Shown here one piece after another: positions 1,822 through 55,456 of a stretch of 64,000 bases of DNA. The stretch spans positions 2,418,001 to 2,482,000 of the forward strand of contig NZ_CP009526.1 of the NCBI RefSeq assembly GCF_000969985.1, given 5' to 3'. Numbering within the stretch: position 1 is the first letter of the stretch; each line of letters starts with the position of its first letter. The position numbers and the translations under genes were made by a program. Under the pieces are notes generated by a model. That model did no database searches. It had not been told where the DNA came from and saw only the letters and a program-made list of their open reading frames with translations. Source of the stretch: Methanosarcina barkeri str. Wiesmoor (GTDB lineage: Archaea; Halobacteriota; Methanosarcinia; Methanosarcinales; Methanosarcinaceae).

Positions 1822-2450
1822 ACCTCTATTTCTGGATTTGCCGCTTTTATATAAATTCTGCCACATTTTTGTAAATATCAGGGCATGTAACTTATTTGTC
1901 TGATCTTTAAACCTGAGGAGTCACAGAGGAAGTTGACTCTTATATTCCCTGAGTTAAATATTCAGGAAGGGTCTTATGCTTCGTAATGTAAACCGTTTCT
2001 ATCCGATAAGAAGGCTATTTAATTTTTATCCTGAGAAATAGGGAAAAACTCGCTTGATGTATCGTAGGTTAGCTGTTTTTCATAATCAGTACAGAGATCT
2101 TTGGAAAAGTTAAAAGTTTTTTAATTGCCCTATTTTGCTAAAATTATTATAAAAAATTTATAATTAAAAAGCTATGATCACAGAGTGATCAACATTTGTT
2201 AGTACAGATACCAATAAAAGTGACTCATCAAAGGACTTAAATAGAATAGGACAGTTATTGATTACTTGAAAGATTTGTAAAGGTAATGACTGGGGAAAAT
2301 TCAAAAGTTGAACTTTAACAGGGAGAAAGTGGGAGCTAAATTAAACTATTTGTACGATTTATGGAAATTAATAAATTGTTCTAAAAGTTAGTCAAAAATA
2401 GTTTAAGCTGACATTCCAATTAAGTTAAAAATTAATTTAAAAGTTGGTAA
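1822..2450. other. Gene-free AT-rich intergenic stretch
   Basis: Apart from the TATA-like element at 1842, no reading frame, strong hairpin or recognisable gene remnant was found on either strand. Stop codons are dense in all frames. Confidence 0.6.
1842..1855 (+). promoter_or_regulatory. Archaeal TATA-box-like element with no gene after it
   Basis: CTTTTATATAAATT is close to the methanogen box A consensus. Initiation would fall near 1870-1880, but no plausible reading frame follows for more than 1.7 kb on this strand. It may drive a non-coding transcript, or it may be a chance AT-rich match. Confidence 0.3.
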
Positions 2451-2645
2451 TTGATTGAGAGCCCTATTTGATGACCCCTGGGCTCTCAATTGGTGAAACC
2501 CCCTTGAAGAATACTCCCCCATATTCTTCATCTAGTTGCAAGAGAACAGTGCAGACATTTAATTGGTTGTGGTGATTGATTGAGAGCTCCGTTGTGATCT
2601 CTGAGCTCTCAATCGATGAAACCCCTACAGAAAAACTCCCCATAA
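2451..2645 (+). ncRNA. Candidate structured RNA: two related hairpins and C-rich segments
   Basis: Two copies of one module lie 125 nt apart. Module 1 has the stem ATTGAGAGCCC (2454-2464)/GGGCTCTCAAT (2480-2490). Module 2 has ATTGAGAGCTC (2579-2589)/GAGCTCTCAAT (2603-2613). The one position that differs within the 11-bp stem changes on both sides (C-G to T-A), so pairing is kept. The loops resemble each other, and each stem is followed by GRTGAAACCCC and then ACTCCCC. In module 1 the C-rich run is the loop of a further 9-bp hairpin (TGAAGAATA 2505-2513/TATTCTTCA 2522-2530). An AT-rich promoter-like stretch lies at 2423-2443. C-rich loops in known bacterial and archaeal sRNAs often bind ribosome-binding sites. 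Strand and transcription are inferred. Confidence 0.45.
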
Positions 2646-2864
2646 GCTATGCACAAGGGTGCATTATTGCGCTTCTCTTACAACTACATCCTTCTAATGC
2701 TGAAATCGTATATATAATAAATTACGTCAAATATTCAATTGCCCATCATTTTTGTATTGTCATACACTTTTTAATATGGGAATAAATTAAAATGTCCTTC
2801 AAAAATGTAATCAATCTTTAAAATTTGCTAACATCCTATTTTTTAATGGCCTTGAAATTTTAAA

Positions 2865-3362
2865 CCTACATTCCGCAGTATTTTTTTGAAAATCAATATT
2901 TCTCATGATAGCGTTTTTGGAACAGAGCAAATAATTTGGATTTTTAATCTGACTTTCCGCAGATGTTCTCGAAAAAACAACAATTTTCTTGCTATCGGTT
3001 TTGGAGAATTTCTCAAAAATCTCTCGTTATTATCTCAACTGAAGCTTTGGTAAATCGAGTTGAAAGTTTTCATTGAAGGTAAAAATGCCGAAAATTGTAG
3101 AACATTTTAAAAATAATTCTTTAAACATCACATGCAATTAGCAGAAAAAACGATAGCAGAAAAAATTATGAAAATTGTACGGACATCTGCGGAAAGAGAG
3201 TTTAATGGTATTTGGGGAAAATTGAATGATATCGTTTTTGGTCTCTAAATACACCACATCGTTGCTTTTACCTACTGCATAAAAGTCCAATAAATCTACA
3301 TTTGATTGAAAATCGATAGCAGTAAAAATATGAATTTACGAAAATTTACTGCGGAAAGTGAG
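2865..3362. mobile_element. Outer MITE, interrupted by a second MITE
   Basis: Inverted ends CCTACATTCCGCAGTA (from 2865) and its imperfect complement ending at 3362 (TACTGCGGAAAGTGAG) are flanked by the direct repeat TTAAA (2860-2864 and 3363-3367). Internal GATAGC(G) boxes near each end are also inverted. After removing the inserted inner element and one of its target copies, the outer one is about 240 bp. It has no coding capacity, so it must have been moved by a transposase in trans. Confidence 0.65.
2949..3200. mobile_element. Inner MITE inserted in the outer MITE
   Basis: The ends are CTGACTTTCCGCAGATGT (from 2949) and the inverted partner ACATCTGCGGAAAGAGAG (to 3200). Perfect 6-bp target copies TTTAAT lie at 2943-2948 and 3201-3206. 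It is 252 bp, AT-rich and non-coding. It shares terminal sequence and internal CTATCG/CGATAG boxes with the outer element and with the copy at 39374, so all three belong to one family. Confidence 0.68.
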
Positions 3363-3490
3363 TTAAAGCAAAAGAATTAACGAATTGAAACTCAATTAAG
3401 AAAGAAAATCGACCTGAATGGCTGATAAAACAATCTGAGTAGTTAATAATAACTGATCTATTTTTTAATATGCGAGGTCAATAGTCGCTA

Positions 3491-3630
3491 TCAATAACTG
3501 CCAACAACTACCTATAACTATCAATAACTGTCAACAACTGTTGACAACTGTTGACAACTGTTGACAACTGCTAACAACTGCCAACGACTACCTATAACTG
3601 CTAACAACTGCCAACAACTGTCAATAGCTA
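3491..3630. repeat. Tandem array of a 10-nt unit, about 14 copies
   Basis: The unit is YYAACAACTG with variants such as CCTATAACTA and TTGACAACTG, in strict 10-nt register. It ends 6 bases beyond the stop codon of the minus-strand acyl-CoA ligase. The central TTGACAACTG copies are partly palindromic. Confidence 0.85.
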
Positions 3631-3636
3631 CTGCTT

Positions 3637-5295
3637 TTACTCAATTGCTATTTTTTCACCTTGCTCATTAAGAAGCTCCACAGCCAGTTCCCTTAGCCTG
3701 TATTTTTGAATCTTACCGCTTGCTGTCAGTGGGAATTCATCTACAATGAATATGTGTTTTGGAACCTTATAGCGAGCGACCTTGCTTAAAGCATAATCTC
3801 TGATATCGACTTCTGTAAAGTCTGCACCTTTTTTGAGAATCACAAAGGCACCTACAATTTCCCCGTATTTTTTGTCAGGGATGCCCACAACCTGAACGTC
3901 TGTAATTTCGGGCATGGTAAGCAGGAGTTCCTCAATTTCCCTTGGATATATGTTTTCTCCTCCCCGGATAATCATGTCCTTAATCCTGCCTGTGATTCTG
4001 TAGTAACCGTTTTCGTCACAGGTTCCAAGGTCTCCACTGTGAAGCCAACCGTCTTCATCGATAACTTTTTTCGTTTCTTCAGGCATCTTATAGTAACCTT
4101 TCATTACGTTATACCCGCGACAACATATCTCTCCTACAGTATTTAGGGGCACAGGCTCATTGGTATCGGGATCAACAACCCTGACCTCTACGCTCGGGAA
4201 ATGCTTACCAACAGTTTCGACCCTGAGTTCTAGAGGATCGTCTACAGCAGTTTGGGTCATACCAGGGGATGCTTCCGTAAGCCCGTAAACACTGGTAATC
4301 TGATAGCAGTGCATATCGTTTACGACCTTTTTCATGGCTTCCACGGGGCAGGTCGAACCCGCCATAATTCCTGTCCTGAGAGATGATAGGTCAAACATGT
4401 CGAACATGGGATGTGTATACTCGGCAATAAACATTGTTGGCACGCCGTAAAGCGCTGTACATTTCTCTTTATGGACAGCGGCAAGTACTAATAGAGGATC
4501 AAAAACTTCGAGCATAACAAGCGTTGCTCTGTGAGTCAGAACGGCCATAACTCCTAGTACTATCCCAAAACAGTGAAAAAGTGGCACGGGAAAACAGAGT
4601 TTGTCTACATAGGTAAACCTCTGGCGGTCTCCAATAGAAAGCCCGTTATTCAGGATATTTTTATGGGTCAGCATGACTCCTTTAGGAAACCCGGTAGTAC
4701 CTGATGTATACTGCATATTGACAACATCGTCACAGTCGACGCTGGTCATAATCTCGCGGAGCTTGTCATCGGGATAATGACTGCCAAGAAGCATAAGCTC
4801 ATTTGTGTTATACATACCCCGGTGCTTTTCCTGTCCTACATAAATTATACTCTTAAGATAGGGAAAGTTTTTGCTTTTCAGTCTCCCCCTCTCAGAGGTT
4901 TTGAGCTCAGGGACCAGTTCATTAATTATTTCGAGATAATCAACGTCTCTGTAACTATCAATCATAGCCAGAGCCTTCATATCGGACTGTTTTAATACAT
5001 ATTCGACCTCATGGCTCTTGTAGGCAGTATTCACAGTAACAAGTACTGCTCCTATCTTTGCCGTGGCAAACATGAAGGTAAGCCAATCAGGAACATTTTT
5101 TGCCCAGATTCCTACATGATCCCCTTTTGTTATCCCTATAGCTAGCAGCCCTTTTGCAAGGTTATTGACCCGTTCGTTGAACTGCCCATAGGTAAAACGA
5201 AGGTTGCGGTCAGGATAGATTATAAACTCGTGGTCAGGGTCTACAGCCACCTGTTTTTCAAAGTAATTACCGAGGGACTCTTCTATAAGATGCAT
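3637..5295 (-). CDS. AMP-forming acyl-CoA synthetase (fatty-acid or aryl acid CoA ligase)
   Basis: At 552 residues this has the full length of the ANL adenylate-forming family. Visible motifs are the phosphate loop [11 protein letters not shown] (around residue 198), YGLTEASPG, the hinge region [33 protein letters not shown] and the C-terminal catalytic lysine in TASGKIQK (around residue 528). It should activate a carboxylic acid to the acyl-AMP and then the CoA thioester in the cytoplasm. The best general match is the medium/long-chain acyl-CoA ligase group; the substrate cannot be read from the sequence. A thioesterase and an XRE-cupin regulator follow on the same strand upstream, which suggests one acyl-CoA locus. 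A 10-nt tandem array follows its stop. Confidence 0.9.
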
Positions 5296-53761: not shown

Positions 53762-55456
53762 AATACTAATAAACTTTGTTGTTTTCCAAAGACCTGTAAA
53801 AAAGATTTAACTGGGCAGAGGATCAGATTTTTTCTGGTCCAATCCCTGCCCTAATATTCCGCAATAACATGTAGAGTATTAAGCTTATTTTTACTACTTT
53901 TGCTGTTGTTTTAAAGAGATGAGTTTTTTCAAACCGCTACAATATCTGGAAATGATTTCATTTTGTGGACTTTTGCGGAATACAAGCTGCACCTAAAACT
54001 CTTCACCTGCCCATACTCACAGGCGAAGAATTTACAGGAGTTGTATGTTCAAGTTACGAATCTAGGAGGCGTTTCTTTTTGTGTCCTTGTAGACATATAT
54101 ATGTATGATAAACTTATATTTAACATTTTCTGTAAGTTTCATAACATTAGATGTTATTATAATAAAAGGTTATGTTATTTATAAAGAGAATAAATACTCA
54201 GAGAGAATACTCATAAAGTATACTCAAAAAGAATAAACAGAAGGAATAAACAGAAGGAATAAACAGAAGGAATTTTGTTTTATAGTCTGGACAAGTCCAT
54301 CCTCTATCCTTCAAGGTTGGGTTAGAATTATGATAACCACAAACTTTAGAGGAAAGCTCAAACTGCCATATCTCTAATATGATTTTTCCTATCCATTGTC
54401 TTATCCTAATAGTAGATTAAGTTTAATTTTAAGACACCAAAACTGATCAAGGAATTGAGAGTCGGATTAAACTTACTGAAACGAGGAGATTAAATTTACT
54501 CAAGATGGAAAATGACATGTAGAACTCAAGTTTATGAGATCTAAAATATCAACTTATTATTGATGAACGACCTAAGTATTTGCACTTACTTTATAATCAC
54601 GACAGAAACAAAACTCGCGGAAGAAATATGTTCCTATTTTTTATACCGTGTCTTTCGTGGTTAACCTTTCACTTCATCTTGGTGAAGAAATTTTAGTTCT
54701 TGACTATCGTTCGGAAACCCGGAATATAAAGTTTAATCACTTTTCATTGTTTTTCAGATAGATTACTGGGATCCGGAAGTTATCTAGATCATTTTTGCCT
54801 TACAAATGATTAAAAGATTATACTATTATAAGAATTCATATTACGATATAGGATATACTTTCATTATATTTAATACTATTTAGTATTTTTATATAATTTA
54901 GTATTATTCATAATAACTTTTTAATCTATTATTTTTTTAATTCAAGATAATAAGAAAGTAAACAATTACATGAATCTCAGAAAAGAAAACGGTATGCGTT
55001 ATTATAAGCACAAATTTTTATGTTCAGGAAATATTTGTCATTTAATTATGAGTTTTATAACAAAAAATAGATTATATATATGATTTTGTGTGAAAATAAT
55101 ATATAATATCAATATATAGTAAAATAAAATTAAAAAAAAATAACACAAATATAGGAAAAATTTAAATAGACATCATATCTATAATACACTGCCGGAAAAA
55201 AGTAGATAGGCAAGAAAAAGTAGACAGTCCAGGGAAGTGGAACGTATTGACTTGTTGACTTGTCTTAAGACCCCTCATATAACCTTTAAAAATATGCCAA
55301 TCCACATTCGCGAAACAGAGAAAGTGGAGATATATTCCGGCTATCAATCATCTGGATAAGGTGATTGGATCATACGAACACGAAGAATCTGAACAGAAGA
55401 TGAAAGAGTCTACGTTCAGATTTTTCATTGTCCATTTTGAATGCTCTGTGCATGCT
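53762..55456. other. Long AT-rich intergenic region without genes
   Basis: A 13-nt unit (AATAAACAGAAGG) repeats three times at 54236-54275. The frame at 53963-54184 has no ribosome-binding site or recognisable domain. A protein-like reading in another frame (53980-54060) is too short to support a remnant. Confidence 0.6.

Follow-up and report, generated by a model that had tools for sequence, protein, structure and literature searches.

Results

An intergenic locus with two related modules

Within the window, the 64,000-nucleotide stretch of DNA analysed here from a 4.9-Mb genome in two contigs, an intergenic locus carries the gene of a predicted small RNA, termed RNA-I (Table 1). In the Methanosarcina and genus g21 contexts examined, the gene lies downstream of an acyl-CoA synthetase gene and on the same strand; in genus g2 it sits at another location. 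A repeat search returned direct repeats matching both modules of the RNA (84% and 94% identity) and a 15-nt inverted repeat at the modules (93% identity), in keeping with the two stem-sharing modules described in an earlier sequence-only reading of the locus. That reading had also pointed to a single stem difference between the modules, changed on both sides (GAGAGCCC/GGGCTCTC versus GAGAGCTC/GAGCTCTC), to GRTGAAACCCC...ACTCCCC tails and to a 9-bp hairpin with a C-rich run in its loop. All of these are present in the DNA, the hairpin at 2506-2529.

By DNA search, the RNA-I region is kept in 25 of the 30 other genomes of Methanosarcina and, outside that genus, in one genome of a sister genus, with full-length matches showing 71-94% identity. 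In genome G015 the homologous locus lies at C1:1690072-1690287 on the minus strand. For the comparisons below, 27 loci were aligned for the TATA box and 26 full-length Methanosarcina sequences, that of the source genome included, were aligned for structure. No open frame of at least 20 codons is conserved on either strand of the region, such frames being shared by at most 4 of 26 sequences; a small protein gene was rejected on this ground, as the sequence-only reading had expected. A tRNA-like identity was likewise rejected, ARAGORN giving no match.

Other repeats were noted in this part of the window. Units of CAACTG/TTGACAACTG are imperfectly arrayed in tandem at 3481-3640, beside the acyl-CoA synthetase gene at its 3' end. 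Positions 2944-2966 and 3183-3205 form a 23-nt inverted repeat (87%) with the core TTTCCGCAGATGT, and pieces related to it, TCCGCAG/CTGCGGA, appear again near 2872 and 3345.

Table 1. Features of RNA-I and its relatives (window positions unless a contig is named; covariance model R1 was built from RNA-I modules, R2 independently of RNA-I)
Feature	Position	Strand	Evidence
TATA box of RNA-I gene, TTATATATA within TTTATTATATATA	2709..2717	minus	27/27 aligned loci
RNA-I, predicted transcript of ~250 nt	2435..2688	minus	26 Methanosarcina genomes including the source genome; fold z -5.55
P1, 5' strand	2674..2686	minus	pairs with 2533-2545; 99.1% of cells paired; 2 pairs changed on both sides
P2, small hairpin within P1	2651..2664	minus	91.9% of cells paired; one-sided changes only
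Module A (first in RNA-I)	2571..2650	minus	R1 match E 3.9e-18 (module A is among the sequences used to build R1); R2 match E 0.029
G-rich motif GGGGAG, module A	2636..2641	minus	columns 55-59, 97% identity
Unpaired linker AGGGGUUUCAUC, module A	2615..2626	minus	98% identity
P4 hairpin, module A	2578..2614	minus	2603-2614 with 2578-2589; 99.0% of cells paired; 4 pairs changed on both sides
P1, 3' strand, between modules	2533..2545	minus	pairs with 2674-2686
Module B (second in RNA-I)	2447..2532	minus	R1 match E 7.9e-19; R2 match E 0.0032
P5 hairpin, GGGGG(A) in loop	2506..2529	minus	G-rich run 2513-2520; 97.9% of cells paired; 2 pairs changed on both sides
Unpaired linker AGGGGGUUUCAC, module B	2493..2504	minus	GGGGGUUUCA 99% identity
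P6 hairpin, module B	2453..2491	minus	2480-2491 with 2453-2464; 99.4% of cells paired; 3 pairs changed on both sides
RNA-II	G000:C2:234056-234151 (L087 1457-1552)	minus	R1 match in the source genome, upstream of fmdE-like gene
RNA-III copies	G000:C2:3312127-3312228, 3312808-3312904, 3312903-3313001 (L154)	plus	multi-copy family, L133-L181

Secondary structure and covariation

RNAalifold, applied to the 26 full-length sequences, returned 49 pairs, of which 11 show compensatory changes. The structure scored for pairing was this result with a lengthened P2 and a small helix, P3, both added by hand. Across the 26 Methanosarcina sequences 96.1% of 1471 cells pair, as against 36-51% when the partners are slid by 1-3 columns, and 40 cells are changed on both sides where shuffles gave 14.9. 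Covariation and conserved pairing across related genomes bear out the earlier proposal of a selected RNA rather than a passive DNA repeat, and together the comparisons support RNA-I as a selected, structured, non-coding small RNA; conservation within the genus can partly reflect limited divergence.

Both modules have the same design: a hairpin carrying GGGG in its loop or close by is followed by the unpaired linker AGGGGUUUCAUC and then by a rigid hairpin (GAUUGAGAGC). The long-range helix P1 wraps module A. Support for P3, a GAAUAC hairpin of module A that has GGGGAG in its loop, is confined to the M. mazei/M. acetivorans-like clade; in the window's clade this GGGGAG has other local surroundings. 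The interval 2451-2645 given by the sequence-only reading takes in both modules but lacks ~40 nt at the 5' end of the RNA, together with one strand of P1; the helix had been missed because one partner lies outside that interval.

Strand, promoter and extent of the transcript

When folding was compared with shuffled sequences, the plus strand of 2445-2645 gave z -4.8, and 2435-2688 gave -5.6 on the minus and -6.4 on the plus strand. Since both strands fold well, a single fold cannot tell the strand, which is decided by comparison. Read on the minus strand, the six helices hold 171 G-U and 9 A-C cells, figures that are swapped in a plus-strand reading. The TATA box upstream is identical and at fixed spacing in every one of the 27 aligned loci, with a conserved element upstream. 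No conserved TATA box was seen upstream of the modules in a separate alignment of the plus strand, in which strands are mixed for some loci. The promoter, the asymmetry between G-U and A-C cells and the long-range helix P1 all assign RNA-I to the minus strand; a plus-strand RNA, as in the sequence-only reading, was rejected on wobble asymmetry and promoter.

Transcription of RNA-I is predicted from these signals. Because of the spacing from the TATA box the start is placed near 2687, where it coincides with the 5' strand of the 13-bp helix P1, and the 3' end would fall near 2440, in T-rich DNA.

Exposed G-rich motifs

With the RNA assigned to the minus strand, the "C-rich" runs become exposed G-rich motifs and therefore cannot serve as the Shine-Dalgarno-binding loops that had been suggested for them. 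They look instead like Shine-Dalgarno sequences themselves, not like the complement. Column identity in the unpaired G motifs and linkers is 95-99% (GGGGA 97%, GGGAG 95%, the two linkers as in Table 1); stems reach 93%, the hairpin loops 49% and 66%, and the spacer 36%. Selection has held the unpaired G motifs at least as tightly as the stems, while hairpin loops and spacer drift. Across the two modules GGGGA(G), AGGGGUU and AGGGAUC occur, the kind of repeated G-rich (GGA-containing) motif that marks CsrB/RsmZ-type RNAs.

Distribution and copy number

Searches with R1, a module model built from 40 sequences, gave matches in 31 of 186 genomes of the order, belonging to 3 of its 27 genera; by this search RNA-I occurs nowhere beyond Methanosarcina and two sister genera. 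Across the phylum, 295 evenly sampled genomes yielded matches in only 2 of 107 genera. No further strong copy of RNA-I was found in the source genome with R1. The number of modules varies: RNA-I has two, one Methanosarcina genome (G027) has a second twin-module RNA, which lacks P1, and matching genomes of genus g21 replace the twin-module RNA with two or three tandem genes (L091, L092, L093), each with a single module and its own TATA box, spaced by ~620-700 bp.

Two related RNA families

A weak R1 match elsewhere in the source genome (E 0.0047) recurs in three other genomes (E 3e-4 to 9e-4). This RNA, termed RNA-II, is kept by 30 of 31 Methanosarcina genomes (loci L100-L127), and its first half matches a multi-copy RNA, RNA-III. 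As many as ten matches to the latter occur in a single genome, often arranged as tandem modules spaced by ~97 nt; TATA-like boxes lie upstream of copies, and UAGGG is presented in two apical loops. RNA-III stems covary, with 7 doubly changed pairs and none of 500 shuffles scoring as high; RNA-II showed no compensatory changes, because there is too little variation among its sequences.

All three RNAs share a design, in which a hairpin with GGG(G) in or near the loop is joined by a GGG(G)UUnnAUC linker to a second hairpin, whereas RNA-II and RNA-III differ from RNA-I in stems, loop sequences and loci. The linker flanks differ among the families (UUUCAUC, UUGAAUC and UUGGAUC) while GGG(G)UU is constant. 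R1 detects RNA-II at E 5e-6 to 2e-3 (52,929 bases searched), and R2, a model built from RNA-II only, detects RNA-I in the window (E 0.003 and 0.03) and in relatives (~1e-3) as well as RNA-III (~1e-4); calibration of both models was brief, so that these E-values are rough, and the relation of RNA-I to RNA-II is one of modest E-values. RNA-II and RNA-III are restricted to the same three genera as RNA-I. Judged from these sequence relationships, RNA-I belongs with RNA-II and RNA-III in one clan.

The linkers of RNA-II and RNA-III, GGUUGGAUC and GGUUGAAUCAC, resemble the archaeal 16S rRNA 3'-terminal consensus, with which GGUUGGAUC is held in common. Mimicry of the 16S rRNA 3' end was dropped as a lead; the 15-mer GGTTGGATCACCTCC is missing from the source genome.

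Comparison with known small RNAs

At RNA-I no Rfam 15 family reached its gathering score, and no Rfam 15 match was obtained at the RNA-II and RNA-III loci or in their relatives; mir-549, at 27.5 bits, stays far under its cut-off of 93. The three RNAs thus appear to form a set of regulators not described before, although a homologue may already figure as a transcript in the 2009 list of M. mazei small RNAs.

The M. mazei RNA sRNA154 (~130 nt, between MM3337 and MM3338, with a GGTA-N6-TACC NrpR operator; PMC3177094) resembles RNA-I in being intergenic, conserved in Methanosarcina and equipped with two hairpin loops. Neither that operator near the RNA-I promoter nor the published sRNA154 primer cores in RNA-I loci were found, and identity with sRNA154 was rejected on locus, operator and primers. 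The duplicated M. mazei small RNAs sRNA162 and sRNA171 also have stem-loops conserved in Methanosarcina (PMC3510493), but are set apart by their description, having another locus (MM2440-MM2442 region) and another architecture (PMC3510493).

The window also holds a copy of sRNA41 (RF02905), described as a characterised Methanosarcina small RNA, at 53986-54100 on the minus strand (48 bits, gathering score 45). It is the sole sRNA41 match in the window, with none at RNA-I. Like RNA-I it is an archaeal intergenic small RNA, but it is a separate gene and lacks G-rich loop modules.

Discussion

Comparison of related genomes establishes the conservation, strand, structure, distribution and modular design of the RNA-I gene, along with its relation to two other families. 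As to function, our leading explanation, held at a little under even confidence, is that RNA-I is a stand-alone minus-strand RNA that titrates a shared partner, most likely an RNA-binding translation regulator, through repeated G-rich motifs. The gene would yield an RNA of ~250 nt made from two copies of one module; this RNA would act in trans, offering an exposed, G-rich, Shine-Dalgarno-like motif in many copies, and these motifs would bind and titrate the partner. Titration is favoured because the GGGG(UU) core is common to the three families while its flanks differ, and because modules have been multiplied within and between genes.

The logic would be that of the bacterial decoy RNAs CsrB and RsmX-Y-Z. 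In these, repeated hairpins display many short G-rich motifs, both in their apical loops and in unpaired linkers; such RNAs titrate CsrA and can form multi-gene sets. RNA-I similarly has repeated hairpins presenting G-rich motifs, but its core is AGGGG(UU) besides GGA, its sequence and structure are unrelated and its decoy function is here proposed by analogy. CsrA (PF02599) was found in 0 of 31 genomes, while the positive controls E. coli, B. subtilis and T. maritima all matched; RNA-I would therefore work like CsrB/RsmZ, with a partner other than CsrA, rather than be one of these RNAs.

The main rival, which we regard as a substantial possibility if a lesser one, is that RNA-I is a trans-acting antisense RNA like sRNA162 or sRNA154, likewise read from the minus strand, whose two-copy AGGGGUUUCAUC and AAUCACC pair with mRNAs and alter their translation or stability. 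The 12-nt linker is long, invariant (98-99% identical) and unpaired and could be an antisense seed, which counts against titration, as a protein decoy with short motifs would need no such seed; AAUCACC is moreover similar to the anti-Shine-Dalgarno sequence, and the characterised M. mazei small RNAs work by base-pairing (PMC3510493; PMC5867862). On the other hand, when the source genome was searched for exact complements of the linker 11-mer, the one non-self match lay inside an apparent reading frame and not at a start codon, and reversed controls were equally frequent (1 and 1), so that the linker complement was rejected as a target signature. Pairing through the linker also sits poorly with flanks that change from family to family around a constant GGG(G)UU. 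A structural RNA that does not regulate translation, for example a ribonucleoprotein scaffold or a trans-acting RNA that binds a ligand, would accord with the elaborate conserved architecture, in which a long-range helix closes a multi-hairpin domain, and with the lack of a match to any Rfam 15 family. We consider it rather unlikely, given that RNA-I stands alone with its own promoter and no conserved same-strand gene downstream, and that its modules come single or paired and do not always have P1, an uncommon trait in a riboswitch or ribozyme.

The two remaining explanations are far less probable. C-rich loops do bind Shine-Dalgarno sequences in other small RNAs, and the plus strand of the locus folds equally well; a plus-strand RNA of this sort, as the sequence-only reading envisaged, is nevertheless very improbable when the conserved wobbles are G-U on the minus strand only and the one aligned TATA box serves that strand. 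Scarcely credible is a passive DNA repeat or mobile palindromic element: the twin repeats are 84-94% identical, but compensatory changes and a conserved promoter argue against it, as do the constant position behind the acyl-CoA synthetase gene wherever the Methanosarcina context was examined and the lack of other strong copies in the source genome.

Should titration through the G-rich motifs be the correct account, a broader proposal can be made, which we put forward as speculative and on balance improbable: that the modular, partly multi-copy clan formed by RNA-I, RNA-II and RNA-III in the Methanosarcinaceae, with up to about ten RNA-III modules in a genome, titrates an archaeal RNA-binding protein through repeated AGGGG motifs and so represents an independently evolved, CsrB/CsrA-like global post-transcriptional switch. 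The mechanism is known for very few archaeal small RNAs. Among those named in the papers cited here, the best studied base-pair. The covariance models, exact coordinates and mutants of the motifs make these proposals testable in the tractable species M. acetivorans and M. mazei. A clan of motif-sharing, often multi-copy RNAs across a model methanogen genus would suggest a common partner.
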